DNA of 39,355 nucleotides from Sphaerochaeta sp. (GTDB lineage: Bacteria; Spirochaetota; Spirochaetia; Sphaerochaetales; Sphaerochaetaceae): assembly GCA_028699215.1 (NCBI GenBank), contig JAQVVB010000002.1, forward strand, positions 1-39,355. Direction: 5' to 3'. Shown one piece after another: positions 8,954 to 34,989 of the stretch. Under the pieces are notes generated by a model. That model was not told the DNA's origin. It worked only from the letters and a program-made list of their open reading frames with translations, and searched no databases. Position 1 is the stretch's first letter, and the number at the start of each line of letters is the position of its first letter. Both the position numbers and the translations under genes were made by a program.

Positions 8954-8969
8954 GCAACAAGTTGCAACA
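8954..8969 (+). promoter_or_regulatory. direct repeat GCAACA-N4-GCAACA (site A) between ade and the NCS2 permease
   Basis: GCAACAAGTTGCAACA, 10-bp period; a further single copy GCAACA occurs at 9039-9044. Confidence 0.55.
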
Positions 8970-14576: not shown

Positions 14577-15776
14577 TTACATGATTCTCTTGGTAGCCTG
14601 CTCAAGCAGTTCATCAAGCTTGGCAGAAGGATTCTGGAACTTTGCCATGAAGATCATTGCAGCAATTACGTATGGCTTATAGCTGGCTTCCTTGTACAAA
14701 GGAACCAAGTATCTGTCAAATACGGAAGCTTCAACTTCACCTTCTTTGCATGAAAGACCAGTGATGTCTGCAGGCAGACAATGCATATAAAGAGCTTTGC
14801 CGTCTTTGGTGGTCTTCATCAAGTCTTCAGTGCAGGTCCAATCCTTGAACTTGGCATTGTTTGCAAGACAGCTCTTCTCAAGAGCCTTCAAGGCATCCTG
14901 ATCACCGCTCTCTACAATCTGAGTTCTCTCTTCCATGACAGCAAAGGGAGCCCAACTCTTGGGATATACAATATCTGCATCCTTGAAAGCTTCAGCCATG
15001 GAATCAACACGCTTATAGGAACCACCGCTCTTCTCAGCATTGGCCTTGGCGATCTCTTCAACATCAGACATTACATTATACCCTTCTGGGTGAGCAAGGA
15101 CGACATCCATGCCAAAGCGGGTAAACAATCCGATGATGCCCTGAGGAACGGAGAGAGGCTTGCCATATGAAGGACTATAGGCCCAAGTCATTGCAATCTT
15201 CTTGCCTTTGAGATTTTCAATTCCGCCAAAGTGATTGATGACGTGAAGTGCGTCAGCCATGCTCTGGGTGGGGTGGTCGATATCGCACTGGAGGTTGACC
15301 AAAGTAGGTCTCTGCTCAAGAACTCCATCATCATACCCTTCCTGTACAGCACCGGCAACAGTCTTCATGTAGGTATGGCCCTTGCCAATGTACATATCAT
15401 CACGAATACCAATGACATCAGCCATGAAGCTGACCATATTGGCGGTTTCACGTACGGTTTCACCATGGGCAATCTGGCTCTTTCCTTCTTCCAAGTCCTG
15501 TACTTCAAGACCAAGGAGGTTACAAGCGCTGGCAAAGCTGAAACGAGTGCGAGTTGAGTTGTCACGGAAGATTGAAATTCCAAGACCACTTTCAAATACC
15601 TTGGTAGAGATATTGTTCTCACGCAGTGCGCGAAGAATTTCAGCTACCTCAAATACTGCTTTGATTTCATCATCGGACTCTTTCCAGGTGTGGAAAAAAT
15701 CATTGAGGTACATGTCATCGGTTTTAAGAGTCTTCAACTCTTCAATCATTTTCTTAATAGCGGCTTTGTCCTTCAT
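14577..15776 (-). CDS. ygeW: YgeW-type (knotted) carbamoyltransferase
   Basis: FRDNSTRTRFSFASACNLLGLEVQDLEEGKSQIAHGETVRETANMVSFMADVIGIRDD, MHCLPADI; located in the purine locus; GGAGG RBS supports start 15776. Confidence 0.9.
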   Translation of the reverse strand: MKDKAAIKKMIEELKTLKTDDMYLNDFFHTWKESDDEIKAVFEVAEILRALRENNISTKVFESGLGISIFRDNSTRTRFSFASACNLLGLEVQDLEEGKSQIAHGETVRETANMVSFMADVIGIRDDMYIGKGHTYMKTVAGAVQEGYDDGVLEQRPTLVNLQCDIDHPTQSMADALHVINHFGGIENLKGKKIAMTWAYSPSYGKPLSVPQGIIGLFTRFGMDVVLAHPEGYNVMSDVEEIAKANAEKSGGSYKRVDSMAEAFKDADIVYPKSWAPFAVMEERTQIVESGDQDALKALEKSCLANNAKFKDWTCTEDLMKTTKDGKALYMHCLPADITGLSCKEGEVEASVFDRYLVPLYKEASYKPYVIAAMIFMAKFQNPSAKLDELLEQATKRIM

Positions 15777-15812
15777 TCGGGAACCTCCATAGTATTTCTT
15801 CAAAAAGAATCC

Positions 15813-15850
15813 AGACATTGGCACTATAGCACGACTATCGTCCAATGTCT
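15813..15850 (-). promoter_or_regulatory. inverted repeat overlapping the ygeW promoter; could be operator or terminator/attenuator for xdhD readthrough
   Basis: AGACATTGG ... CCAATGTCT with inner ATAG-cacga-CTAT; on the minus strand it is followed by GGATTCTTTTTG. Confidence 0.65.
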
Positions 15851-15858: not shown

Positions 15859-15874
15859 TGTTGCAGTTTGTTGC
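15859..15874 (-). promoter_or_regulatory. direct repeat GCAACA-N4-GCAACA, putative activator site (site B)
   Basis: Minus strand GCAACAAACTGCAACA, 10-bp period, 7 bp upstream of the ygeW -35 box. Confidence 0.6.
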
Positions 15875-15882
15875 ACTAAAAA

Positions 15883-18762
15883 TTAGATTTTTCCAAGTTC
15901 CTGCAATATCTTTTCAGCTGAGAACGGCCATGAACGCATCCAAATGCCACAAGCATCATGAATTGCAATTGCGATGGCAGGTGCTGCTCCATTGGTTGCA
16001 ATCTCACTGATGGATTTAGCCCCGTAAGGACCTGCTTCATCATCGATATCAATCAGTACAGCTTTGAAATCATCAGGTTTCTCACTGATCATGGGAACAC
16101 CATAATCGGTAAGATTTGCATTGATGCATTCTCCCTTCTCGTCGATGATCATTGACTCATACAGAGTATGTCCAATCGACTTCAATGCAGCCCCATACAT
16201 CTGACAAAGAGCCAGTTCTGGATTGATTGGAGTGCCAGCATCCTGCAGAGCATAGAACTTCTGGACCTTGACCTGACCGGTTCTGACATTTACCGCCACT
16301 TGAGCAAAATGAGCACCGTAAGGAATTGAGTTATGGTTGGTTGTAAAGGAAGCTCGTCCCATCACCTGTCCACTTCCTGTTCCTGTAAGCGCATCGTGAG
16401 AAAGCTTGCCATACCCAAGCGTCTTTCCTGTCTTGGTACTGTATACCTCACCGGGGGCTCTACAAATCAGATCCTCAAAATTCTCATCCATCTGCTTTGC
16501 TGCCTCAGTAAGCAGGTTTTTCTTCAGGTCTTCTGCTGCCAGATAGGAAGCATTTCCACTGAAGAACGTTCCACTGGAAGCGTACGCACCGGTATCGAAG
16601 GTACAACTGTCGGTGTCTCCACTGACAATCGAGACCAAATCCATCGGAACGCAGAAGGCTTCGCTGATCATCTTGACGCTGATGGTATCGAGCCCTGTTC
16701 CAAGGTCTGCACCACCGCTGAAGATTTGAAAGGTTCCATCGGTGAGCAACTTGGCCCAAGCATTTGCATGGTCAAGCCCAGGAAGGCCGCTTCCCTGCTG
16801 GATCATGGCAAAGCCTTTGCCGATTTTCCAATCAGGATCAGAGGATTTCACCTTTTTACCCCATTCGATCATTTTGGCACCCTGCTTGAGGGCTTCATCC
16901 AACCCACAAGAACCTACGGGAACCACCGTACCTTCACGACCTTCACCAAGGCCTTTGAGAATCTCAAGCATATAGCCAGGCTCAACCTTGTTTTTCATAG
17001 CCATTTCGTAGTAGTCGATTCCAAGCTTGTCAGCAAGCTCTGCCATACAGGTCATCAACCCATAGGTACCCTTTGGAGCACCATATCCCTGATACGCACC
17101 GGTAGGAAGGATGTTGGTGTAATACGTGATTACATCGAACTTCATGTTGTCACATTTGAGCAACGGCAACGTCTTGGAACATGCATTCATGGGAACGGTA
17201 AGACAGTGGTTTCCATAAGGACCGGTATTGGCGCGGACATCCATATAGACACCAGTAAGCGTACCATCCTTCTTTGCCCCCATTTTCACGGTGACACGCA
17301 TTGGATGACGGGTGGAGTTTGCAATGAACTCTTCCTGTCGCGTATTGCGATAGTAGATGGGTTTGCCTGTAATCCAGGTGGCATATGATACCAGATCCTC
17401 AACCAGGATATCTTGCTTGGATCCATATCCGCCACCGACTTTTTCCTTGATGACATGAATCTTATTCTCAGGAATCTGACAGACCCAAGCCACTATGCGG
17501 CGTACGTGCCATGGCACCTGTGTGGAAGCGTGCACCACCAGACGACCATTGTCGATCTTTGCATAACAAAGATGGGGTTCGAGCGGGGTACATTGAATCT
17601 GACTGGTCTGGTAGGTTCTCTCCACCACTGCATCAGCTTCCTTGAAACCCTTCTCAACATCTCCAATCTGACCATGAGCGGCAGAAGCGACATTCCTTCG
17701 GATATCACCGTGGAGGGGGAATTGATAGATGACTTTCCCATCCCTGGGATCTGCACTCTTATTGTACTCGTCAAGATCAGCTGGAGCACCAGCACGGTAT
17801 TCAACAATCCCGTTGTGCACCAGAGGAGCTCCCTCTTCCATTGCTTCTTCAACGGTGAATATGGGCTTGAGTACCTCATACTCAACCTTGATGGCATCCC
17901 GAGCGGCAATGGCCTGTTCTTCAGTTTCAGCAACGATGGCAGCTACGCGGTCACCTACATGCCTTACCTTTTTATTGAGCAGACGTCTATCATGCGGACT
18001 CGGTTCAGGATTGCCCTGACCTGCCTGCATATAGAATACATCCGGGCAATTCTCGTGGGTGATGATGGAAATGACGCCATCCATAGCCAGAGCAGCTTTT
18101 GTATCGATTTTCTTGATATAGGCATGAGCATAAGGACTTCTCAGCACTACCATCGAGTAATAACCAGGCAATACACGATCTTCAACGAAACTCTTTTCAC
18201 CACTCACCAACTGAGGACCATCAACCTTGGACTTAGGTTTTCCGACGTAGCTCAGATGATCTCTGAATGTCGGGGAAATAGCGGTCTTATACGATCCTGT
18301 CTCTTTCTTCTCAATGGCAAGCTGCACTGCAAGATAGTAGTGCTCGTATCCTGTGTCACGGATGAAGATGCCGGAAAGGACAGTGTCTATCTGTTCCTTG
18401 GTGGGATGGCTCTCTTTTTCAAGCAGCCACGTCAACAATAAAGCTGCAGCAGGAGCATTATAGGCGCTTTGTACAACACCTGCATCAATCATCGCCTGTT
18501 GCACGATACTGAGGTTTCGACTATCCCCCAATCCTTCTGCAGTACGGATCTCAGCTCCATCCGCTTGAAGCGCGAGCATCAGATTCGCATACACGGGCAT
18601 ATCATTGAAAAGTATGGTATCACTACCGGCAAAACCTTCGCGGTCATCACTATCACGTACACTTTCATACCCGCTACGCACCAACAAGGAGCGCAAGGAT
18701 TCTGATCCTTCACAGGTAGCTTTCAGTGTTTTTCCATTAACAGTACAGGTAATCTTGTTCAT
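15883..18762 (-). CDS. xdhD: XdhD-type molybdenum hydroxylase (selenium-linked purine hydroxylase)
   Basis: Very close in layout to E. coli XdhD: SVRDSDDREGFAGSD, HASTQVPWHVRRIVAWV, VIKEKVGGGYGSKQDIL, GPYGAKSISEIATNGAAPAIAIAIHDACGIWMRSW. Confidence 0.92.
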   Translation of the reverse strand: MNKITCTVNGKTLKATCEGSESLRSLLVRSGYESVRDSDDREGFAGSDTILFNDMPVYANLMLALQADGAEIRTAEGLGDSRNLSIVQQAMIDAGVVQSAYNAPAAALLLTWLLEKESHPTKEQIDTVLSGIFIRDTGYEHYYLAVQLAIEKKETGSYKTAISPTFRDHLSYVGKPKSKVDGPQLVSGEKSFVEDRVLPGYYSMVVLRSPYAHAYIKKIDTKAALAMDGVISIITHENCPDVFYMQAGQGNPEPSPHDRRLLNKKVRHVGDRVAAIVAETEEQAIAARDAIKVEYEVLKPIFTVEEAMEEGAPLVHNGIVEYRAGAPADLDEYNKSADPRDGKVIYQFPLHGDIRRNVASAAHGQIGDVEKGFKEADAVVERTYQTSQIQCTPLEPHLCYAKIDNGRLVVHASTQVPWHVRRIVAWVCQIPENKIHVIKEKVGGGYGSKQDILVEDLVSYATWITGKPIYYRNTRQEEFIANSTRHPMRVTVKMGAKKDGTLTGVYMDVRANTGPYGNHCLTVPMNACSKTLPLLKCDNMKFDVITYYTNILPTGAYQGYGAPKGTYGLMTCMAELADKLGIDYYEMAMKNKVEPGYMLEILKGLGEGREGTVVPVGSCGLDEALKQGAKMIEWGKKVKSSDPDWKIGKGFAMIQQGSGLPGLDHANAWAKLLTDGTFQIFSGGADLGTGLDTISVKMISEAFCVPMDLVSIVSGDTDSCTFDTGAYASSGTFFSGNASYLAAEDLKKNLLTEAAKQMDENFEDLICRAPGEVYSTKTGKTLGYGKLSHDALTGTGSGQVMGRASFTTNHNSIPYGAHFAQVAVNVRTGQVKVQKFYALQDAGTPINPELALCQMYGAALKSIGHTLYESMIIDEKGECINANLTDYGVPMISEKPDDFKAVLIDIDDEAGPYGAKSISEIATNGAAPAIAIAIHDACGIWMRSWPFSAEKILQELGKI

Positions 18763-19592
18763 TTGGCACCTCCTGCAACAAATTCGGCAAATAGCTGGGC
18801 TATTCCCTCACTGGCGATATACCGCTTATAGGAGGAACTTCCGGTAAAATCATCCTTTGCTTCGATTGCATGTCCAACTGCTAGCTGGACATCCTGTCTA
18901 CTGGTCAACTCTCCATTCTCGATGGCGTTCTCTACATCAGAAAGGCGCTGTACGCCACTCCCCTTGACAGCAACATACACGCGTACATGATCGATGACCC
19001 CTTCATTGTTCTTGGTTGCACCGAATCCAACAGTAACGCCGGCTTGGCTTTCCAGGGTATTGGCGAAGCGAGAAGAGCCAACAAAACGTTGATCCTTGGA
19101 GAGGCTGACCCCGAGCAACAACGTACCACTGAATTGACTGTGGTAGGCATGATACTCCCTTATTGGAATGTTATCCTCGCTATACGCCCCACCTTCGGTC
19201 AGATTTGCCGTGAGCAAACGTGCACGGGATGCAAGCAATACGGGAGCAAGATACGAGTGATCCCCACAGAGTGCCAGGTTGCCTCCAAGTGTGGCCATAT
19301 TGCGCCGTGGAAACGAACCGCAATATAAAGCAGCATCTTTCAAGTATTGGGGAACCAAAGGAGATTCAACCAATTGTTGAAAGGTGACCATCGAACCAAT
19401 TCGAATCGAATTCCCTTCGTCGGTTATATTGTTCAGATGCAACTTGGAAAGACTGATGGCAGTCTTTGCCATCACGGTTGAATTCAAACGATTGATCTCT
19501 GTTCCTCCAGCATAAAACACGCTTTTAGGATTGTTTCTTCTCAATTTCAACGCATCTTCACTGTCATTTGCAATAAGAAATTCCTGTATCAT
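18759..19592 (-). CDS. ygfM: YgfM-type FAD-binding subunit partner of XdhD
   Basis: FYAGGTEINRLNS, CGSFPRRNMATLGGNLALCGDHSYLAPVLLA (CO-dehydrogenase flavoprotein-type); 4-bp overlap with xdhD. Confidence 0.85.
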   Translation of the reverse strand: MIQEFLIANDSEDALKLRRNNPKSVFYAGGTEINRLNSTVMAKTAISLSKLHLNNITDEGNSIRIGSMVTFQQLVESPLVPQYLKDAALYCGSFPRRNMATLGGNLALCGDHSYLAPVLLASRARLLTANLTEGGAYSEDNIPIREYHAYHSQFSGTLLLGVSLSKDQRFVGSSRFANTLESQAGVTVGFGATKNNEGVIDHVRVYVAVKGSGVQRLSDVENAIENGELTSRQDVQLAVGHAIEAKDDFTGSSSYKRYIASEGIAQLFAEFVAGGAK

Positions 19593-20977
19593 ACAGCCTC
19601 CTGTTTGGCAGCTTTGTCCATGAGTTTTCTGCTGATGGCATTAGCTTTATCAGCAAGTTCTTGTTCGTCGAAACCAACCAGCTGCCCAGCATCGACAACC
19701 ACTTTTCCATTGATGATCGTATAATCAGTATTATGATTGGTACCACAAAAAAGCAAGCTTGCAACGGGGTCACTTTGACTTCCCGCGTAGGGAATGGTGG
19801 AAACATCAAAGATGGCCATGTCTGCAGCCCACCCTTCTTCCAATTTTCCTACATTTCCAAAATTCAACATTTTCGCACCATTGATGGTCCCCATGGTAAA
19901 GGCTTCATTGGCTGTCAGCGCATCTGCACCATAACGAACTCTCTGCAACAACAAAGCCTGTCGAACTTCATTGAGCATATCGGAACTGTCATTGCTTGCG
20001 CTTCCATCGACGGCGATACCTACGTTGATACCCATAGCAAGCATCTCTTTTGCCCTACAGATGCCACTTCCCAATCTCATGTTGGAGGAAGGACAATGTG
20101 CAATGTGCGTACCGGTATCTTTCAAGATCTTAAGCTCTTCATCATTGAAGTGAATGCCATGTGCATAGAAAACATCTGAACCAATGAGGTTGCACTCCTG
20201 CATGAGCTGAACAGGACGCATCCCATACATCTCTACACAGAAATCTGCTTCATCGAAGGTTTCACACAGATGAGTATGCAATCTGACGCCATATTTTCTT
20301 GCAAGTGCAGCAGTTTCACTCATCAATTCTTTGGTGACACTGAAAGGACTGCAGGGAGCAAGGGCTATCTTGTGCATCGCATCAGGAGCTGGATCGTGAT
20401 ACGTCTGAATACACCGCTCACTATCGCTGAGAATCTCCTCGAGTGTCTGTACGACACTGTCAGGAGGAAGTCCACCATCTTTCTTGCTAAGACTCATGGA
20501 GCCTCTGGTAGGACTGAAACGCATTCCAAGCTGGTCGGCGGCCTTGAACTGCAAGCCCATCAAATCTCCGTTGAAATTACGGGGATACAGGTAGTGGTGA
20601 TCAGTGGTACAGGTACAACCGGTTTTCATCAATTCAGCCATGGCAAGCATGGAAGAATAATATACAGCCTCGTCATCAACATACTTCCACACATCATACA
20701 AGAATTTCAACCAGTCAAATAACTTTGCATTCTGAACAGCAGGATGGTTCCTTGTCAACGTCTGATAGAAGTGGTGATGTGTGTTGACCAATCCAGGAAT
20801 AACCACATGCTTTGAACAGTCTATGACCCGTACGCCTTCTTCAGCAACAAGCCCACCAGACGGTGCAATCTTAGCTACCTTATTGCCTTTGATAAGTAGG
20901 TCGGCTCCCTTGTACTGGGGACCGTCAAAACTGGGTTGCAGACAGAAAATGTCTTTCAGTAAAATCGAAGAGTCCAT
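19589..20977 (-). CDS. 8-oxoguanine deaminase-type amidohydrolase
   Basis: IPGLVNTHHHFYQTLTRNHPAVQNAKLFDWLKFLYDVW, LHTHLCETFDEADFC, AHCPSSNMRLGSGICRAKEML, VDGSASNDSSDMLNEVRQALLLQR; overlaps ygfM by 4 bp. Confidence 0.85.
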   Translation of the reverse strand: MDSSILLKDIFCLQPSFDGPQYKGADLLIKGNKVAKIAPSGGLVAEEGVRVIDCSKHVVIPGLVNTHHHFYQTLTRNHPAVQNAKLFDWLKFLYDVWKYVDDEAVYYSSMLAMAELMKTGCTCTTDHHYLYPRNFNGDLMGLQFKAADQLGMRFSPTRGSMSLSKKDGGLPPDSVVQTLEEILSDSERCIQTYHDPAPDAMHKIALAPCSPFSVTKELMSETAALARKYGVRLHTHLCETFDEADFCVEMYGMRPVQLMQECNLIGSDVFYAHGIHFNDEELKILKDTGTHIAHCPSSNMRLGSGICRAKEMLAMGINVGIAVDGSASNDSSDMLNEVRQALLLQRVRYGADALTANEAFTMGTINGAKMLNFGNVGKLEEGWAADMAIFDVSTIPYAGSQSDPVASLLFCGTNHNTDYTIINGKVVVDAGQLVGFDEQELADKANAISRKLMDKAAKQEAV

Positions 20978-24608: not shown

Positions 24609-25823
24609 TTAGTTCTCCAAGGAGTAAGGGAGCATAGCATAGAAAGCACTACAAATCTCAAGATCGTCAATGCGGTTGATTTCGTTGGGAGCGTGAGCTT
24701 GTGACTCATCGCCAGGTCCGAAACCGATAGCAGGAATCTTGTGGCGTCCAGTGGTTGCAACCAAGTTGGTTGAGAAGGTCCACTTGTCTACGACAGGAGC
24801 CTTTCCAAAGAGAGCCTCATGTCCAGCTACACCAGCAACTACCAAAGGATGGGTTGCATCGATTTTCCATGTTGGGAAATAGAGCTCTTGAGAATAAGGC
24901 TTTTTGGTCCAGCCGATTTTCTCATAGTTGGGCATTTCAACAACGATTGATGCAGGATCATCTCCAGTTGCCTTGGCGATGTACTCGCGAACCTGGCTGA
25001 TGGCAAGATCTGCGTCTTCACCCCAAGTGAGGCGACGGTCGCAATAGAGCATGGCATAGTCTGCAACTGCACACTGGCTGGGGCCCTTTACATCCATCTG
25101 ACTGACGGTGATGGTTCCTTTCCCAAGGAACTTTTCGTCATCGGGTTGCAGGTCCTTGTTCAACTGCTCAATGGCGAGAGCTGCCTTGGCTGCTTTGTAC
25201 GCAGCACTCACACCGCGCTCAGGAGCACTACCATGGCAAGAAATGCCCTTGAGGATTACTCTGATTTCCATACGACCACGATGTCCGCGATAGAGGCGGC
25301 AGCTGGTGGGTTCAGTGGAAACCACCAAGTCAGGGCGGAAGTTCTCTTCTTCAATGAGGTACTTCCAGCACATGCCGTCACAATCCTCTTCCATTACCGT
25401 GAAGGTAAAGTAACAGGTATATTCACCACCGTAACCGAGTTCCTTAAGAATTCTTCCGGCAGTAATCATGGATGCAGCGCCACCCTTCTGGTCGCTGGTG
25501 CCACGTCCCCATACCTTTCCGTCCTTGATGTCGCCGCAGAAGGGATCAAAATCCCAGTTCTTGAGGTTACCGACTTCGACAGTATCGATATGTGCATCAA
25601 AAGCCAATTTCTTTGGTCCGTTACCAACGCGACCGATTACCGAGCCAAGTCCATCGATGTAGACTTCGTCAAATCCAGCCTCTTCACAGAGAGTGACGAT
25701 AAGACGACAAACATCCTCTTCCTGGGAGCTGTAACTTTTGGTTTTCACCATCTTTGAAAGGTTGATCGCCGTATAATCACGATATTCGGCAGCCTTTGCT
25801 CTGATCTGTTCCTGAATAGTCAT
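24609..25823 (-). CDS. ygeY: YgeY-family hydrolase (M20-type, selenium-metabolism/purine cluster)
   Basis: LAFDAHIDTVEVGNLKNW, GRGTSDQKGGAASMITAGRIL, VMEEDCDGMCWKYLIEE, EPTSCRLYRGHRGRMEI; start trimmed to MTIQEQ. Confidence 0.92.
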   Translation of the reverse strand: MTIQEQIRAKAAEYRDYTAINLSKMVKTKSYSSQEEDVCRLIVTLCEEAGFDEVYIDGLGSVIGRVGNGPKKLAFDAHIDTVEVGNLKNWDFDPFCGDIKDGKVWGRGTSDQKGGAASMITAGRILKELGYGGEYTCYFTFTVMEEDCDGMCWKYLIEEENFRPDLVVSTEPTSCRLYRGHRGRMEIRVILKGISCHGSAPERGVSAAYKAAKAALAIEQLNKDLQPDDEKFLGKGTITVSQMDVKGPSQCAVADYAMLYCDRRLTWGEDADLAISQVREYIAKATGDDPASIVVEMPNYEKIGWTKKPYSQELYFPTWKIDATHPLVVAGVAGHEALFGKAPVVDKWTFSTNLVATTGRHKIPAIGFGPGDESQAHAPNEINRIDDLEICSAFYAMLPYSLEN

Positions 25824-25871
25824 ATAATATTCCCCTTCGACCCTCATGGTCATATCTTCACATCACTCACT

Positions 25872-27194
25872 TCAAGGAGCGATTTTGTCTACTTTTTCCC
25901 AAACCCGCTGAGCAACCTTTGCAGCCTGCGCATAGATTGCATCGACATCAAGACCCGGGAATTTTCTGTTCTCCATGACGAACTTTCCGTCCACCATGAC
26001 ACTTTCAACACAATTGCTGCTCATACCCCATACAAAATGGGAAGCTGCATTATCAGCTACGAGCGGAGTTGGGTTATGGTAATCGAGAATATTCAGATCA
26101 GCCTTATACCCAGCTTCAATCCTGCCAAAATTACCGTCAAAGTACTTTTCAACAAGCTTGTTTCCTCGTGAAAGCGCTGTTACATAATCACCAGGCCACC
26201 AAGAACCGGTTTGGTCCTTATGCTTGAAGAATGCGAGCTTGAGCTCTTCAAACATGTTGCCACCACATCCATCGGTACCGATGATCAGATTCTTCACCTG
26301 CTGGATGTTCTTGCAATATCCAACATTGTTGTTCATGTTGCTTCTTGCATTATGAGCAAAAAAGCAGTCATGCTCGTTGATCTTTGCAATCTCAGATTCA
26401 TTCAGATGAAGACCATGAACCAACAGTGAGTTGGAGGTCAACAGACCGAACTTCTCCAGTCGATCGATGATGTCAGCATTGTAATGATGGTGAGAATGCA
26501 CGACATCGTACTTATCCTCAGCCACATGCAGGTGAAGTCCGGCGCCGGATTCCTTCATCGCCTCACCCATCATGCGAAGACCTTCATCAGGAATCGTAAA
26601 GGGAGCATGTCCACCTATCATTCCTCGAACAAGCTTGCTGCTCTTGCTGGACATGGCGAATCTAAGGTTCTCCTCTACTCCAGCTTCAACTTCCTTCATT
26701 CCACCGTTGCGGTCGGTCACTTCGTAGCAGGTTGCACCACGTACCCCAACTTCTTCCATTCCCTTGGCGATTGTATCCAAAGAGTTGGCGATATATGAAG
26801 GGCTGGCGTGATGATCGATACAGGTTGTGGTACCTGCAGCGATTGCATCCAAGGAGCAGATCAAAGAACTATAGTAACATGCTTCTTCGTCCAACCCTCT
26901 ATCAAGACGCCACCACCATTCCTTAAGAACCTGGATGAAATCATTTTGAGGTCCAGCTGAAATCAGCATTCCTCGTGAAAGCCCGGAATAGTAATGGTGA
27001 TGACCACATACGTTGCCAGGAATGACTGTTTTATGACTGCCGTCAATAATTCTGTCTGCCTTGACTGTAGAACCGGCATTTGCATGAACAGCGAGGATGA
27101 TGTCGTCTTGAATGACGACATCTACTCCCTCGGAAACTGCAAATGGAGGCATAGTCTGCATGACTCGCGTGTTTTTAATAACAATAGTAGACAC
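25872..27194 (-). CDS. ssnA: SsnA-type aminohydrolase
   Basis: IPGNVCGHHHYYSGLSRGM, CIDHHASPSYI, LHLHVAEDKYDVVHSHHHY, FFAHNARSNMNNNVGY, GTDGCGGNMFEELK; GTG start with GGAG RBS. Confidence 0.92.
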   Translation of the reverse strand: MSTIVIKNTRVMQTMPPFAVSEGVDVVIQDDIILAVHANAGSTVKADRIIDGSHKTVIPGNVCGHHHYYSGLSRGMLISAGPQNDFIQVLKEWWWRLDRGLDEEACYYSSLICSLDAIAAGTTTCIDHHASPSYIANSLDTIAKGMEEVGVRGATCYEVTDRNGGMKEVEAGVEENLRFAMSSKSSKLVRGMIGGHAPFTIPDEGLRMMGEAMKESGAGLHLHVAEDKYDVVHSHHHYNADIIDRLEKFGLLTSNSLLVHGLHLNESEIAKINEHDCFFAHNARSNMNNNVGYCKNIQQVKNLIIGTDGCGGNMFEELKLAFFKHKDQTGSWWPGDYVTALSRGNKLVEKYFDGNFGRIEAGYKADLNILDYHNPTPLVADNAASHFVWGMSSNCVESVMVDGKFVMENRKFPGLDVDAIYAQAAKVAQRVWEKVDKIAP

Positions 27195-27206: not shown

Positions 27207-30200
27207 CTACTCTTCTACATACCCAAGCAAATAGCTGTAGGATGTGAAGACTTCTTCTATCAGGGCAGCAACTTCATCGGTTATGCCCTCTTCATCTCCA
27301 ACCAAAATTCCATCCCCATCCATCGAACAATTGTAGATTTTTCCGTCAAGACGAACGAGAATCTCATCCCCTTCGACATAGAAACCACTGTTTTCGGAGT
27401 TCTTGAAATCATCAGGTCTGCTGAAGAGCGTGAACTTCTTGCGATAAGGACCACCATCATACGGACAGAAAGTCTCACAGTTGCCACATTCATTACAGTA
27501 AGCATCGAGGTGCAAAATCTGGAATGGATCGGAAAATACTCCGGTGTTACGGACATCGATTGCAACATTGGCACGGTTAGGACATACATCCACGCACTTA
27601 TTGCAGAGATACGAACACTCGAGACAACGCTTGGCTTCTGTTTCAGCAAACTTCTTATCACCGACCTCTTTGGAGGAGAGGATCTTGCTCTTCTTCAAAG
27701 CAATCTCTGCAAAGTAGTCATTTTCATCAGAGGTCATTTGTTCGCGTTCTTCATCGGTAAGGTCGTCATCGTCTTCGAAATCTTCCTCATCCTCACAATC
27801 ACACTCATCGCCACAATCACATTCATGGTCGTGGTCATGACCGCAACTACAATCGTGTTCATGCTCGTCTTCAACCTCAGGTCCAAGAACCTTGTCGATG
27901 GCTGCCTCAACTGCAACGCGTGCACTGGCTATACAACGCACAACCGTGGATGGACCACTTTGCACATCACCAATGGCGTAGACATTCTCAACTTCCGTCT
28001 CTTTGGTCTCTTTGTTGGTCTTCGGCCAATGTTTTTCATTGACAGGTACACCATACCAAGTGAGCTTTTCGGAATCTGCGTGTTCACCGATAGCGGTGAT
28101 CATGGAATCAGCGACCAAAGTGAAGGTCTCATCAGTTGCAACTGGACGACAACGACCAGAAGCATCCTTTTCTCCAAGCACCATTTTGCGGACAACCAAT
28201 TGGTTTGCTTCACAAGATTCGGGATTGGCAAGGAACATGAACTCTACGTTCTCTTTCTTAGCAAGGCCGTACTCTTCAAGGTCTGCAGGCATTTCTGCTT
28301 CAGTCCTTCTATATACGACAGTTACTTTTTCAACACCGGGAACCCTCAAGGCGGCACGGGCGCTGTCCATGGCAGTATTACCACCACCTACGACTACAAC
28401 CTGCTTGCCCAATTTCACAGAAGAAGGATCCTTTCGGTACGAACCAAGGAAAGAAAGGGATTCCATAATGTTGGAACGATCGCCTGCAAGAGGAATCTCA
28501 TTGTCGACTTCACTACCAATGGCATAGAAGATGTACGTATACCCCGCGTCTTTAAGAGCTTTGATAGTCATTTCATCACCCTTCACTCCAAAGTGGAAAT
28601 CCACACCATGGGCTTTGATGAATTCCACATCGCTTTCGATGGCTTCGACAGGAAGGCGGAAACCAGGAATGACATGACGGACCACACCACCAGCGCTCTC
28701 TTCCCGTTCAAAGACTGTGGTATCGAAACCACTTCTTGCAAGGAAATATGCAGCAGAAAGTCCTGCAGGACCAGCACCAACGACAGCTGCTTTGATTTCG
28801 CTCTTGTCAGTAGGACCTTCCCAGGTTTTCTTGTACTCTTCAAATCCATTCTCAACGGCGATCTTTTTCATCTCACGAATCTGTACAGCACCTTCATAGT
28901 CCATGCGTGTACAATGCAACTGACACTGGTGGTCGCAGATATGAGCAGTGATGGCAGGAAGTGCATTCTTATCATAGATGAGGGCCAAAGCATCGCTATA
29001 GCGTCCTTCACCTACAAGCTGCACATACTCAGGCACATCCTGATGAATTGGGCAAGCAACCTGACAGGGAGCAACATAACAATCAAAGACAGGAAGTTCT
29101 TCACCAAGCTTAATGGAGTCAGTACCCCTGAATTCCTTGTTGACACTTGCATATTTGCCTTCCCTTGCATCGCTGGAAAGCTGTGCAAGTTTCTCGATGT
29201 CTATCGATGTCATATCCCAAGCCTTACTCTTGTTCAGAATTTCAACCATCTGACCAAGTCTGGTGTATCCACCGGGCTTAAGCATATCGGTAGCAAGCGT
29301 GATCGGTCTGATTCCCGTCTCAAAAAGAGCCTGGACAGTCAGTGCATTTGCACCACCACTGTACGAGATTGGCAATTTTCCACCAAACTCCTTGCTGAGC
29401 AAGGTAGCTACGGTAGTGGAGATAGGAAGCAAAGAACGACCCGACATATACATTTCTGCACCAGGAAGTTGTCCCTGGTCATTGACGGATCCCAGAGTGT
29501 TGGTAAGCTTAACACCAAATCCCCTACCTTCTTTCTTTGCAAGATCAACCAAGCGATGAAGCATGGCTATTGCATCGTTATACTGTAGGTCGTGTTCAAA
29601 ATTTTCACGAGTCAGTCCAATGTACTTGAATCCTAGGTTGTCAAGAATTTCACGTACCTTGTCATAGCCCAACAGTGTCGGATTGAGCTTTACAAAGGTA
29701 TCGATTTTCTTTTCTGTAAGCATGTATGTACAAATGGCCTCGATTTCTTTGGGAGGACATCCGTGCATGGTGCTGATGGTCGTTGAAGGGCTGATGTTTG
29801 CACTGATCTTCGAGGTAAGTCCCTTGAGTTTCTTTTCAAGTCCTTCCCATGCAGAGCCATCAAACAGGCCTTCTTCCAACATTGCATCCAATTCGGCAAG
29901 ATACTCTTTGAAACGAGCATCCTTATTGGCATCAATCATTGAGTCGATGAACTGTTGCATCTTCTCGGTCTTGATACCTTCCAGGTTGTACCCAACAGAC
30001 ATATTGAAGATGAAGGATGGCTTTTCAAACGCACCTTTATGCTGCAATGCCTCAAGTACATGGAGAATGATCCAAGCCTTCGCATACTCATCCCAAGCCT
30101 TGGAAAGGGTATACTCAGTGGACCATTCTACGTTGTAGGCTTCATCCCTTGCATCAATGCAGGGTTTCTCAATCTCAAGGGTATCCATGACCTGGACGGT

Positions 30201-30449
30201 CTTCAATTCCATGAATCGTCCACCGGTAAGATAACTTGCCACGATGTTTTGGGCCAGTTGTGTGTGAGGACCGGCTGCGGGACCGCAGGGGGTCGAACAA
30301 CTCTGACCAAACACCTTTACGCTGTTTTTGCCTTTGTCCTGATAGAACTGTTCTTCGGCAATTCCAAAAATTGAATGATGGTTACGATATTCTCCAACAA
30401 TACGACTGATAAGTTCCGAGAAGGGAACTGGGCGCATGACGTCTCCCAT
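27207..30449 (-). CDS. ygfK: YgfK-type flavin/Fe-S oxidoreductase (annotated elsewhere as putative selenate reductase subunit)
   Basis: MRPVPFSELISRIVGEY; CQVACPIHQDVPEY; GAGPAGLSAAYFLARSGFDTTVFEREESAGG; VVVVGGGNTAMDSARAAL; CLECSYLCNKCVDVCP, CNECGNCETFCP. Start at 30449 (GGAG RBS). Confidence 0.93.
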   Translation of the reverse strand: MGDVMRPVPFSELISRIVGEYRNHHSIFGIAEEQFYQDKGKNSVKVFGQSCSTPCGPAAGPHTQLAQNIVASYLTGGRFMELKTVQVMDTLEIEKPCIDARDEAYNVEWSTEYTLSKAWDEYAKAWIILHVLEALQHKGAFEKPSFIFNMSVGYNLEGIKTEKMQQFIDSMIDANKDARFKEYLAELDAMLEEGLFDGSAWEGLEKKLKGLTSKISANISPSTTISTMHGCPPKEIEAICTYMLTEKKIDTFVKLNPTLLGYDKVREILDNLGFKYIGLTRENFEHDLQYNDAIAMLHRLVDLAKKEGRGFGVKLTNTLGSVNDQGQLPGAEMYMSGRSLLPISTTVATLLSKEFGGKLPISYSGGANALTVQALFETGIRPITLATDMLKPGGYTRLGQMVEILNKSKAWDMTSIDIEKLAQLSSDAREGKYASVNKEFRGTDSIKLGEELPVFDCYVAPCQVACPIHQDVPEYVQLVGEGRYSDALALIYDKNALPAITAHICDHQCQLHCTRMDYEGAVQIREMKKIAVENGFEEYKKTWEGPTDKSEIKAAVVGAGPAGLSAAYFLARSGFDTTVFEREESAGGVVRHVIPGFRLPVEAIESDVEFIKAHGVDFHFGVKGDEMTIKALKDAGYTYIFYAIGSEVDNEIPLAGDRSNIMESLSFLGSYRKDPSSVKLGKQVVVVGGGNTAMDSARAALRVPGVEKVTVVYRRTEAEMPADLEEYGLAKKENVEFMFLANPESCEANQLVVRKMVLGEKDASGRCRPVATDETFTLVADSMITAIGEHADSEKLTWYGVPVNEKHWPKTNKETKETEVENVYAIGDVQSGPSTVVRCIASARVAVEAAIDKVLGPEVEDEHEHDCSCGHDHDHECDCGDECDCEDEEDFEDDDDLTDEEREQMTSDENDYFAEIALKKSKILSSKEVGDKKFAETEAKRCLECSYLCNKCVDVCPNRANVAIDVRNTGVFSDPFQILHLDAYCNECGNCETFCPYDGGPYRKKFTLFSRPDDFKNSENSGFYVEGDEILVRLDGKIYNCSMDGDGILVGDEEGITDEVAALIEEVFTSYSYLLGYVEE

Positions 30450-30524
30450 ACTCACTCCTTCGATTAAAGGTGTCGTCAGGCACTAAGGCCCAACACTGTT
30501 CTATTCTAATGCAGATTGAAGAGA

Positions 30525-30530
30525 AGTCAA
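30525..30530 (-). promoter_or_regulatory. -35 hexamer of putative ygfK-ssnA-ygeY promoter (TTGACT-N16-TAGAAT)
   Basis: Minus strand TTGACTtctcttcaatctgcatTAGAAT, both hexamers 5/6 to consensus. Confidence 0.6.
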
Positions 30531-30538
30531 TCGTTTTT

Positions 30539-30554
30539 GCAACATTTCGCAACA
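30539..30554 (+). promoter_or_regulatory. direct repeat GCAACA-N4-GCAACA (site C)
   Basis: GCAACATTTCGCAACA, 10-bp period, 8 bp upstream of the ygfK -35 box. Confidence 0.6.
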
Positions 30555-30815
30555 CTTTTTTCTTGCTTGCCCATAATAACCTTTCTCTGACAAGTGTGTT
30601 GCATCCAACATATCCACATAAAAACCAATCCCAAATACATTGCTTTCACCGAGATACCAAGGCAAGGCATAGATACTCCACCCCATGGGAAAGGGAAAAG
30701 CTTTCTCACCTTCTATCTTATTATCATTAAATCGCACTTTACCATAAATTAAAATATATTTACTGCTACTTAACGCAAATTATTTGCAGAAAATCTAACT
30801 TTCACGAATTATCGC

Positions 30816-30843
30816 TTTACAATTTTCATCTTTCTTGTATACT
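30816..30843 (+). promoter_or_regulatory. putative promoter of the PLP enzyme gene
   Basis: TTTACA-N16-TATACT about 47 bp before the ATG at 30890. Confidence 0.55.
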
Positions 30844-30889
30844 TGACTAATCTAAAAAAGCAACCTAGTGTCAGCACGGAGGAAAAGAC

Positions 30890-32356
30890 ATGTTGATTAA
30901 TTTGAATGTGAACCCTGAAGTCAGGGAAAAGAACATTAAACGCTGTAGAGAAAAGGGCATCCTGCTTCCTACTTTCAAACAAATGGTGGATCCTTCCACT
31001 GTATCCGAGGATATCAAGAATAAACTCGCAAAAACTGGTCTTTGGGATGTTGATCCTGTAAACCTCTATAGAGTGACTTGGCACAATGAACCTGTTGAGA
31101 AAGGTGGAAAGTTTGGTGATGTCAACTTCATCGAAGTCCCCCATGAGATCACTGGCGTCAAAGCTAGAATCATCGCTCTTGCAGGAAAATGGTTCCCCAC
31201 CGGTGTCCATAAGGTAGGAGCTACGTATTCTTGTCTGGCCCCTGCACTTGTATCAGGTAACTTCGACTCCGTCGACCAACAGGCTGTATGGCCGTCAACC
31301 GGCAACTACTGCCGTGGTGGAGCATATAACAGCGCTTTACTTGGCTGCCAGTCCATTGCAATTCTTCCCGAAGAAATGAGTCAAGAACGATTCAATTGGT
31401 TGAAGACAGTCGCCGGCGAAATCATCGCCACTCCTGGTTGCGAATCAAACGTAAAAGAAATTTTCGACAAGTGCCATGAATTGGATGCAACTCGCGGAAA
31501 CCACATTGTCATTTTCAATCAGTTCGAACAGTTCGAAAACTACCTTTGGCACTATGTTGTTACTGGTGGAGCAATGATTGAAGTAGCTAAACAGCTTAAC
31601 ATTGCAGATAAAGACGTTCGTGGATATGTATCTGCCACTGGTTCAGGCGGAACACTTGCTGCCGGAGACCATCTCAAGGATGTCTACCCCAATGTAAAGA
31701 TTGGTGCAGCTGAAGCCCTTCAATGCCCGACCTTGCTCCGCAACGGATTCGGTGGACATAGAATTGAAGGTATCGGCGACAAGCATGTGCCTTGGATCCA
31801 CAATGTCAAGAACACTGATATGGTTCTTGCCATCGATGACCAGGATTGCATGGATGTTTATCGCCTCTTCAACGAACCAGCCGGTATCGAATATCTGAAA
31901 AAGATGGGAGTATCTGAACAAGATATCGCCAATCTTTCTCTCTATGGAATCAGCGGTGTAGGCAACTTGCTCGGTGCTATCAAAATGGCCAAGTACTATG
32001 AAATGGATCAAGATGATGTAATATTCACTGTACTTACCGACAGTTCCGAAATGTATACTTCAAGACTTGAAGAGCAGAATAAAGAACAGGGTAATTTCGA
32101 TGAATTTGCAGCTGTCAGAGCTTTGGCTGCCTGCCTTCACCATCAGACCATCGAGAATGCCAAGGAGCTGGGCTACTATGACAGACTTGCCATCCACAAT
32201 CTCAAGTACTACACTTGGGTTGAGCAACAGGGCAAGACCTATGAAGAAATCAATGCACAGTGGTATGATAAGAACTACTGGAAGCAGATTCCTTCTTATG
32301 CAGAGAAAATCGATGAGATGATTGAAGCATTCAACAAGGAAATCCTATCTAAATAG
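30890..32356 (+). CDS. PLP-dependent fold-type-II enzyme (cysteine synthase/threonine dehydratase-like beta-family protein)
   Basis: WFPTGVHKVGATYSCLAPALVSG, WPSTGNYCRGGAYNSALLG, YVSATGSGGTLAAGDHLKDVYPNVKIGAAEALQCPTLL; RBS GGAGGA. Confidence 0.8.
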   Translation: MLINLNVNPEVREKNIKRCREKGILLPTFKQMVDPSTVSEDIKNKLAKTGLWDVDPVNLYRVTWHNEPVEKGGKFGDVNFIEVPHEITGVKARIIALAGKWFPTGVHKVGATYSCLAPALVSGNFDSVDQQAVWPSTGNYCRGGAYNSALLGCQSIAILPEEMSQERFNWLKTVAGEIIATPGCESNVKEIFDKCHELDATRGNHIVIFNQFEQFENYLWHYVVTGGAMIEVAKQLNIADKDVRGYVSATGSGGTLAAGDHLKDVYPNVKIGAAEALQCPTLLRNGFGGHRIEGIGDKHVPWIHNVKNTDMVLAIDDQDCMDVYRLFNEPAGIEYLKKMGVSEQDIANLSLYGISGVGNLLGAIKMAKYYEMDQDDVIFTVLTDSSEMYTSRLEEQNKEQGNFDEFAAVRALAACLHHQTIENAKELGYYDRLAIHNLKYYTWVEQQGKTYEEINAQWYDKNYWKQIPSYAEKIDEMIEAFNKEILSK

Positions 32357-32371
32357 CTTGGATTTTCCATC

Positions 32372-32399
32372 AAATGCCGGGCAGCAGTGTCCGGCATTT
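32372..32399 (+). terminator. intercistronic terminator/attenuator hairpin
   Basis: AAATGCCGG-gcagcagtgt-CCGGCATTT then T, between the two PLP genes. Confidence 0.75.
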
Positions 32400-32415
32400 T
32401 CAGTTTGGAGGAAAT

Positions 32416-33639
32416 ATGCGTTTTACGTATGAATGCTGCGATTGCGGCAAAGTCTTTGAATCGGAAGAGGTACTGTACCAGTGCCCTGAATGTGCAGAAA
32501 AGAATGACGGAAGTTCATTTCCCAAGGGCAATCTGATAGTCAAACTCAACAAAGAAGACTTGGAAGAACTTGCAAAAAGAGAACATGTAACCATGTACGA
32601 CTTCTTCCCCTACACCATTCCAACCCCCGAGGTGTATCCTGTGGGAGGAACCCCCATTGCAAAACCTGCCAGACTTGCAAAAAAGTATGGCTTGAAGAAT
32701 CTTACTTGTAAACTCGACAGTGCCCTGCCTTCAGGTTCCTTCAAGGATCGGGCAAGTCAGCTGATTGCAGCCCAGGCGATTGCACACAAGCAGAACAGAA
32801 TAGCTCTCGCTTCAACAGGTAATGCAGGAGCTGCCATGAGTTGTGCAGGAGCTGCGTATGGTTTGGAGATCATTCTTTTTGTTCCTGCCACCGCCCCCAT
32901 CAACAAATTGATGCAGAGCGTACTCTATGGAGCCACCGTAGTCCCTGTCAAAGGAACCTATGATGATGCTTTCGCCCTTTCCATTGCCTATACGAAGAAG
33001 TTTGGAGGCATCAACCGCAACACCGCTTACAATCCGATGACGATTGAAGGCAAGAAGAGCATCTCCATTGAATTGTTTGAACAAATGGGAAGAAAAGCTC
33101 CCGATGTAGTATATGTCCCCGTGGGAGACGGCTGCATTTATGCAGGTGTGTTCAAGGGCTTCTACGACCTCAAGGAAGCTGGCCTCATCAATAAGATGCC
33201 CCATATCATTTGCGTACAAAGCAAGCAGAGCAATGCGATCAGCAAAGCCTGGGAAACCGGAGATTTCAGTTGCATCGATGCTGCCACCACCCGTGCCGAC
33301 AGCATTAGTGTGGAAAGTCCGGCAAATGGACGTATGGCGGTGCGATACATCAATGAATGCGATGGTTGGGCAACGCAAGTAGATGACAGTGAAATTCTTG
33401 AAGCCCAACTTGAACTGACCAGAGAAGCTGGTATTTTCGTAGAACCTGCAGCTGCTTGTGCTTGGGCAGGCGTAAAGAAAGACAACAAGATGCTCATCGA
33501 GAAGTTTGGAGAGGATGTCAGTGTATGTACGCTGCTCACTGGTACAGGATTCAAGGATATGGCGGTCTTCACCGGTCGCGTTTCCATTCCTGAAGCCATA
33601 GAGAACAGTACTGAAGCTGTAATCAAACGATTCGAGTAG
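32416..33639 (+). CDS. threonine synthase-like PLP enzyme with N-terminal zinc-ribbon
   Basis: CCDCGKVF...YQCPECAEK; LDSALPSGSFKDRASQLIAAQAIAHKQNRIALASTGNAGAAMS; start MRFTYECC with GGAGG RBS. Confidence 0.85.
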   Translation: MRFTYECCDCGKVFESEEVLYQCPECAEKNDGSSFPKGNLIVKLNKEDLEELAKREHVTMYDFFPYTIPTPEVYPVGGTPIAKPARLAKKYGLKNLTCKLDSALPSGSFKDRASQLIAAQAIAHKQNRIALASTGNAGAAMSCAGAAYGLEIILFVPATAPINKLMQSVLYGATVVPVKGTYDDAFALSIAYTKKFGGINRNTAYNPMTIEGKKSISIELFEQMGRKAPDVVYVPVGDGCIYAGVFKGFYDLKEAGLINKMPHIICVQSKQSNAISKAWETGDFSCIDAATTRADSISVESPANGRMAVRYINECDGWATQVDDSEILEAQLELTREAGIFVEPAAACAWAGVKKDNKMLIEKFGEDVSVCTLLTGTGFKDMAVFTGRVSIPEAIENSTEAVIKRFE

Positions 33640-33660
33640 ATCATTGATGGTGAAGAGAAG

Positions 33661-33690
33661 AAGCAAGCAGGCCGATTGGTCTGCTTGTTT
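33661..33690 (+). terminator. terminator after threonine synthase-like gene
   Basis: GCAAGCAG-gccgattggt-CTGCTTGT followed by a T-rich tract. Confidence 0.65.
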
Positions 33691-33723
33691 CATTTTTCCC
33701 TTACCACTCAAGGTTGAATCTCT

Positions 33724-34989
33724 TCACTTCCCAAGCTGCCTGATCCTCTTATCCACTTGTTTTCTCATTGTGGTGAAGAGAGGTTCTTTCATGGGTGAAG
33801 CAGGTAACAAAGCAACTGCTTCAAACGCCTTGACAATTGCAGAAACCATCGAGTCCAACAATGTTTCCATATAGTGTTTACCGATTCCCACCTCTTTTCC
33901 AAACCTAAGAAAATGTTCTTTTCTGATGTGTTCAATACGATATTCTCCACCGATCTTCATGGATAGGTTTGATGACAGATCCTCATACGCCATGGTAGAA
34001 ACCAAGTCATAGGATGGGGACAAGAGAGACGACCCTTGGTCAGGATAGAGGAAAGAAATATTCTTCCCATGTGCGTCACAGTTTCCGATGAGAAAACAAA
34101 AAACCGCGAGATCCAGCAATTCACGCACATCGATAATTGGTGCAGAAGAAATGTCTTGCACCAAAGAAACAATTTCACGGAATCCAGGACCGCCATCCGC
34201 TTCATATTTACAGTCCGGCATAATTCCAAGCGCCTGGCAGGCATCTTCTTGTTGGATACGTTCTATACAAGGAGGATCCAAGGAGCGTATTTTCCTGTCA
34301 TACCGCTCTATTATGAAGACGGGAGTGCTTTCCAGCATCATCAACTCAGTGGAAGGTACCGAAAGCCCACACAGAGAAGCAACCTGCATACACAAATACT
34401 CATTCACAGCAAGGTCAGGAAATGGATGTCTTGAGGGTTTCAGAATATGGGTGGAAGGCGCCCCTGAAAGGGGAATATACCAAACACCATTGAAACGAGC
34501 CAATGGAATCTTCTGTTGTGCACCCGCCAAGGATACTCTTGCATCTGAAACTCCGACAAGAAGTGGCCGTTTGTCCATCCGCTTAATCAAAGCAGCAAGT
34601 TCGCTATCTTCAATCCTCCGGTATTGGGTTGTAAAAGGTAAAGGAATGAAGCTTTCCAAGTTTTCCTTATATTCTTTTTCATTGACCAAAGTCACAGATC
34701 CTGCACACTCTTTGCCCAAAGCCTCCAGCAATTTCAAAGAGCTCGATTCCGATACATGAAGGAATTCGGAAATCTTCCTTTTCAATTCACCGTCAGGAAG
34801 AAGACCTGAGAAAAAAGGGAGACAGGCCTTTGAGGAGAACTCTTGCCTCTGCAGTGGAAGAGAGTGCGACAGGGGTTTTGCATCAGGAGTGTCCAGATAC
34901 TTGTAATCATAGCGAAAGGTTACCCCTCGATCCACCGTACCGCACAGAAGACCAATCCTGTTTCCTTTTTGACTGACTACAAGATTCAT
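33724..34989 (-). CDS. hipA: HipA-family serine/threonine kinase toxin
   Basis: LAGAQQKIPLARFNGVWYIP, HILKPSR, NEYLCMQVASLCGL, LIGNCDAHGKNISFLY, LSPSYDLVSTMAY are HipA motifs. Confidence 0.92.
   Translation of the reverse strand: MNLVVSQKGNRIGLLCGTVDRGVTFRYDYKYLDTPDAKPLSHSLPLQRQEFSSKACLPFFSGLLPDGELKRKISEFLHVSESSSLKLLEALGKECAGSVTLVNEKEYKENLESFIPLPFTTQYRRIEDSELAALIKRMDKRPLLVGVSDARVSLAGAQQKIPLARFNGVWYIPLSGAPSTHILKPSRHPFPDLAVNEYLCMQVASLCGLSVPSTELMMLESTPVFIIERYDRKIRSLDPPCIERIQQEDACQALGIMPDCKYEADGGPGFREIVSLVQDISSAPIIDVRELLDLAVFCFLIGNCDAHGKNISFLYPDQGSSLLSPSYDLVSTMAYEDLSSNLSMKIGGEYRIEHIRKEHFLRFGKEVGIGKHYMETLLDSMVSAIVKAFEAVALLPASPMKEPLFTTMRKQVDKRIRQLGK

Follow-up and report, generated by a model that had tools for sequence, protein, structure and literature searches.

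A conserved pair of fold-type-II PLP enzymes associated with reductive urate genes in Spirochaetota, a candidate alternative or parallel to YgeX

The biochemistry of the reductive urate pathway, which bears on gout and on how the gut handles urate, was established only in 2025 (Li et al., PMC12507026). The accessible portions of that paper and of the commentary by Percudani describe pathway variants at the reductase and ureido steps (UacX, UacY and an F420-type reductase) and, within those portions, no substitute for YgeX. In their neighbourhood survey, Li et al. (PMC12507026) scored YgeX by PF00291. Both proteins described below, which we call PLP1 and PLP2, also match PF00291, and if they work as proposed, surveys of this kind would lump unlike enzymes. 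Their closest described counterparts are YgeX (DpaL), threonine synthase (ThrC) and the CBS/CysK family with Fn1055, a cysteine (hydroxyl) lyase that converts cysteine and water into serine and H2S (PMC9865163).

The stretch of DNA analyzed here (the window) comprises 39,355 nucleotides of a Sphaerochaeta sp. genome. Family profile scores place ygfK, ssnA, ygeY, ygeW and xdhD together in it, as in the reductive uric acid pathway of Li et al. 2025 (PMC12507026), so that the window carries a reductive urate cluster (Table 1). The cluster is a minus-strand run of ygeW, xdhD, a ygfM-like subunit, an 8-oxoguanine-deaminase-like gene, xdhB, xdhC, xdhA, ygeY, ssnA and ygfK, with adenine deaminase and purine permease genes to its left; the hydantoinase gene hyuA and the carbamate kinase gene lie outside the window, on contigs C394 and C250. 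The amidohydrolase encoded within the xdh block (19589-20977) scores above the PRK08203 (8-oxoguanine deaminase) cut-off and is kept beside PLP1 in distant spirochaetes. PLP1 and PLP2 are adjacent, with 59 bp between them, and both are divergent from ygfK. The start of PLP2 was set at 32416 and not at 32374 of the open reading frame list, since a GGAGG lies just upstream of it and orthologue alignments begin there. The hairpin that follows PLP2 suggests a single PLP1-PLP2 transcript. A HipA-like kinase gene (33724-34989) is convergent with PLP2.

Table 1. Positions of genes and sequence elements in the window
Feature	Position	Strand	Remark
Third perfect GCAACA-N4-GCAACA site	8954..8969	+	At adenine deaminase gene start, beside divergent gap with purine permease
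ygeW	14577..15845	-	TIGR03316, 774 bits against cut-off of 500
Second perfect GCAACA-N4-GCAACA site	15859..15874	-	Just 5' of ygeW
xdhD-type molybdopterin subunit	15883..18762	-	TIGR03313, above cut-off
ygeY	24609..25853	-	Above both NCBIfam cut-offs
ssnA	25872..27194	-	Above both NCBIfam cut-offs
ygfK	27207..30455	-	TIGR03315, 1426 bits against cut-off of 835
ygfK/PLP1 divergent intergenic region	30456..30889		434 bp
Sigma-70-like promoter toward ygfK	30503..30530	-	Consensus match, directly beside operator-like site
Operator-like site C, perfect direct repeat GCAACA-N4-GCAACA, GCAACATTTCGCAACA	30539..30554	+	About 80-100 bp from ygfK start
Sigma-70-like promoter toward PLP1	30816..30843	+	Consensus match, about 260 bp from operator-like site
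PLP1	30890..32356	+	488-aa fold-type-II PLP enzyme, CysK/CBS-like core, N- and C-terminal extensions
PLP2	32416..33639	+	407-aa threonine-synthase-like PLP enzyme, N-terminal four-Cys zinc ribbon
Terminator-like hairpin	33660..33691	+	Strong, 3' of PLP2

The initial annotation had reported two PLP enzyme genes divergent from ygfK across a gap with site C, and both open reading frames and the repeat are present. It had also reported that no YgeX was visible, which stands for the window, where no YgeX-like gene was found, and fails genome-wide. A search of the whole genome with TIGR03528 retrieved a full-length YgeX with the ATDGNHG motif on contig C154 (5613-6869), next to a sodium-symporter-like gene and unrelated genes. 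It scores 531 bits with PRK08206 (cut-off 276) and 510 with TIGR03528 (cut-off 532), and it passes the TIGR01747 cut-off (274). The absence of YgeX was thus rejected at face value: a bona fide ygeX exists elsewhere in the genome, and "ygeX replaced" is false as a statement of genome-wide absence, while the slot in the cluster is still held by other genes. YgeX lies outside the urate cluster in the Sphaerochaeta-group genomes examined and inside it, beside ygeY and ygeW, in Brachyspira-like genomes.

The PF00291 gathering score is exceeded by PLP1 and by PLP2, and Pfam together with structure comparison gives both the fold-type-II fold. The pair resembles YgeX/DpaL in this fold and in cluster position, and the same net reaction is proposed for it; the pair differs in being made up of two proteins, of which PLP2 bears a zinc ribbon, and in showing no family-level match. 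PLP1 has no listed match to the YgeX/DpaL profiles, and PLP2 reaches about 19 bits (cut-offs: TIGR03528, 532; PRK08206, 276; TIGR01747, 274). The Asp of the ATDGNHG loop is taken as a functional residue of YgeX/DpaL; it is missing from both proteins, which have PSTGNYC (PLP1) and ASTGNAG (PLP2) instead, each invariant or nearly so.

PLP1 carries an HK108 Schiff-base lysine motif (TrpB-like HK), a PSTGNYCRGG loop and an invariant HRIEGIGDKHVPW that includes Asp297. Its AlphaFold model has a pLDDT of 91.4, with low confidence in the loop that bears Asp297 (residues 290-301), and the closest structural neighbours of the model are CBS and Fn1055. PLP1 shares with Fn1055 and the CBS/CysK family the catalytic core, and Asp297 aligns with Asp232 of Fn1055, the position changed in the D232N structure, where cysteine synthases have GIGAGF. 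It differs from them in the HK lysine motif, the distinct STGNYCRGG loop and the added N- and C-terminal regions; identity over the core is about 24%, and hydroxyl-lyase activity of PLP1 is putative. Membership in the cysteine synthase and CBS families is not supported by profile scores (cysK, 108.7 against 351 bits; CBS, 71.2 against 510). An OrtB-type thiolase was considered as the identity of PLP1 and rejected, as no such family is among its listed profile matches.

Asp297 is kept in 40 of 40 PLP1 sequences and in homologues from Rhizobium and Bosea, whose two plasmid records were the only ones outside Spirochaetota in which the distribution search found PLP1 homologues. These are 41-42% identical to PLP1 and retain GIGDKHVP; genes for M20 hydrolases and TauE exporters are close by, in Bosea together with RidA and a YgeX-like gene. 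Such contexts fit beta-substituted alanines generally as substrates, without singling one out. The YgeX-like gene of the Bosea plasmid (L191, 14743-15894) is seemingly frame-broken and lies about 4 kb from the PLP1 homologue, with RidA and gamma-glutamyltransferase genes between them.

The PLP2 model (pLDDT 93.5) has the ThrC fold (TM 0.72-0.77 over the query in comparison with bacterial ThrC), and the zinc ribbon, whose Cys 7, 10, 23 and 26 are invariant in 38 of 38 orthologues, is common to some ThrC. PLP2 differs from ThrC (TIGR00260, PRK08197) in falling below all curated cut-offs, with 157.1 bits against 167.1 for TIGR00260; the true ThrC of this genome, whose gene is beside thrA, reaches 254.7 bits. 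Arg160 and Thr88 (T. thermophilus numbering) are the substrate-phosphate residues of threonine synthase. The aligned Arg160 position is Arg in four solved ThrC structures and Thr209 in PLP2, and Thr88 corresponds to Ala137; both replacements are found in 38 of 38 orthologues. An invariant Arg201 located a few residues from the Arg160-aligned position could compensate for the lost arginine, so the residue argument is strong, not final. Judged by its sequence, PLP2 is probably not a threonine synthase, and such activity, which the initial annotation had considered together with a ygeX elsewhere as grounds against its proposal, is unlikely given Thr209 and Ala137. A housekeeping threonine synthase was rejected as the identity of PLP2 on the active-site residues and the thrA-linked thrC.

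We scanned contigs for PLP1 relatives; the best 80 of 390 matches all carried spirochaete record titles. The neighbourhood is conserved: of 80 named loci, 75 have PLP2 directly 3' of PLP1 and 36 have a divergent ygfK within 1.5 kb, while only 59 have any pathway gene within the examined flank. In L172-L174 (families f26 and f30) the genes form one long operon, ygfK-ssnA-ygeY-PLP2-PLP1-oxoG-ygfM-xdhD, followed in L173 and L174 by ygeW. In L154, L155 and L171, PLP2 adjoins ygeY (or ygfK) and PLP1 is within the xdh operon, while L159 has the order ygeY-PLP1-ygeW. Carbamate kinase or hydantoinase genes are found near the pair in many further loci, and in G079 carbamate kinase, PLP1, a carbamoyltransferase-like gene and PLP2 are clustered without ygfK. 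Brachyspira-like genomes are without PLP1 and have ygeX-ygeY-ygeW instead, in L184 followed by carbamate kinase. The PLP1-PLP2-ygfK arrangement is not due to chance, and since arrangements differ between distant spirochaetes, the linkage to urate genes reflects more than shared ancestry of one locus. Because PLP1 and PLP2 are also found apart, they are probably separate enzymes and not an obligate complex. One genome (G059) has two PLP1 copies, one between ygeY and ygeW (L159) and the other with PLP2 beside ygfK (L158). A gene of about 200 codons lies directly 5' of PLP1 in about 36 loci (e.g., L167, L082 and L110); for one of these genes the product has a weak hit (36.9 bits; cut-off, 1500) to the end of the anti-phage ProA model.

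Among 197 Spirochaetota genomes that are at least 90% complete, 35 contain ygfK, and PLP1 is present in 16 of these against 2 of the other 162 (Fisher p = 4e-12, ignoring kinship). The 35 genomes divide into 8 with PLP1 only, 18 with YgeX only, 8 with both and one with neither (G075, locus L181). PLP1 was found in 8 of 9 ygfK-containing genomes that lack YgeX and in 8 of 26 that have it (p = 0.005), a value that ignores kinship and is weakened in particular by the YgeX-only group being largely one genus. Among 60 closer relatives, 43 have ygfK: 26 with both PLP1 and YgeX, 13 with PLP1 only, 4 with YgeX only and none with neither; PLP1 occurs without ygfK in three close relatives, besides the two genomes of the phylum sample. 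The non-orthologous replacement of YgeX proposed by the initial annotation is therefore upheld at the phylum level, by the urate operons in which the genes sit beside ygeY and ygeW and by the 8 of 9 genomes, and is, in the form proposed, unsupported for this organism in view of the YgeX on C154. Since YgeX is kept in 26 of 39 close relatives with PLP1 and ygfK, the pair is not a simple YgeX replacement here or in these relatives.

GCAACA was found in 69 of 71 ygfK-PLP1 intergenic regions, with 158 occurrences against 10.9 expected, some loci being overlapping stretches of the same genome. The distance from the operator-like site to ygfK hardly varies, and of 58 PLP1 copies away from ygfK only 5 have the site, which is near the 3.6% background. 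Thus, site C is best read as the own operator of ygfK, and purine control of PLP1 and PLP2 through it is unsupported. The c4 gene, which is 5' of PLP1 in other lineages, was rejected as carrier of the operator (2 of 36). The GCAACA site also precedes carbamate kinase and ygeW. It precedes YgeX only in G022 and G023, both without PLP1 (2 of 4 genomes lacking PLP1 against 0 of 14 with PLP1, p = 0.04); in G006 and G027, also without PLP1, YgeX has no such site. This hints, in a small sample, that genomes without the pair have YgeX in their purine regulon. GCAACA-N4-GCAACA repeats were also seen before genes for a BMP-family transporter protein, a xanthine/uracil-type permease and pyruvate phosphate dikinase-like and carboxylase-like proteins (G000 contigs C80, C250, C272 and C348; G016 and G018, loci L204-L211; genes named partly by eye), which suggests a purine regulon that may extend into pyruvate metabolism.

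One can propose that PLP1 and PLP2 are a conserved reductive-urate pair of Spirochaetota that acts at the amino-acid end of the pathway as an alternative or parallel to YgeX, and we give this reading about an even chance of being correct. The pair is likely to function at the amino-acid end of urate breakdown, and in genomes lacking YgeX it has plausibly replaced that enzyme; here, given the stand-alone YgeX, it may be a parallel route and not necessarily the sole one. The analysis establishes the genes, how they are linked, their co-occurrence with ygfK, the residues and the folds. For the step, its substrates, the order of the two enzymes and how they share the work, we infer that the pair would act on 2,3-diaminopropionate or on the final ureido-alanine once YgeY and YgeW have stripped the ureido groups. 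PLP1 would eliminate the beta-amino or ureido group, leaving aminoacrylate on PLP, and Asp297 might activate water for re-addition, yielding serine and ammonia or urea by analogy with Fn1055. PLP2 would then deaminate the product to pyruvate or perform the elimination on the other stereoisomer. The narrower scheme, in which PLP1 converts 2,3-diaminopropionate or albizziine to serine by water-adding beta-replacement, PLP2 deaminates serine and YgeX is displaced in several spirochaete families, we regard as doubtful. Parsimony speaks against the pair acting in place of or beside YgeX, as two enzymes would do what one YgeX does, in a genome that already has Fe-S serine dehydratases. So do the YgeX genes of this genome and of many relatives, the lack of the operator at most PLP1 copies away from ygfK, the loci with no pathway gene in the examined flank, the PLP1 carriers without ygfK and the low confidence of the loop with Asp297.

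The pair could instead form a side branch that turns carbon and nitrogen of diaminopropionate into an amino acid for biosynthesis (serine, or cysteine through beta-replacement by sulfide), with YgeX leading to pyruvate. The relatives that keep both enzymes and the proximity of PLP1 to beta-replacing CBS/CysK enzymes agree with this; however, genomes with ygfK and PLP1 only would be left without a terminal step, the pair occupies the ygeX slot of catabolic operons and the genome has its own cysK, which makes a side branch rather unlikely. A step earlier in the pathway, at which the pair would either release the last ureido group as urea through beta-elimination or racemise a D-configured ureido or diamino acid for the lyase, would suit the strong match of PLP2 to serine racemase, a fold-type-II enzyme, and the gene grouping in G079, and PMC12990295 treats ureido cleavage order and stereochemistry as still debated. 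We consider it improbable, since ygeY and ygeW already cover ureido removal alongside the pair in many operons and YgeX is reported to be active on D- and L-isomers (PMC12507026). Finally, the two may be nothing more than neighbours of the urate genes, PLP2 being a threonine synthase that has diverged and PLP1 an enzyme of general amino-acid metabolism. The narrow miss of PLP2 against the thrC profile (157 against 167 bits), the many loci with no urate genes nearby and the PLP1 copies that are away from ygfK and lack the purine operator would all be expected then, but this reading is improbable in view of the true ThrC beside thrA (254 bits), the loss of Arg160 and Thr88 in all 38 PLP2 orthologues and the strong association of PLP1 with ygfK.

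The proposed role of the pair at the amino-acid end of the pathway is directly testable in ygfK-containing strains that lack ygeX. If true, it would add a last-step variant to the reductive urate pathway, with purine carbon possibly routed through serine.
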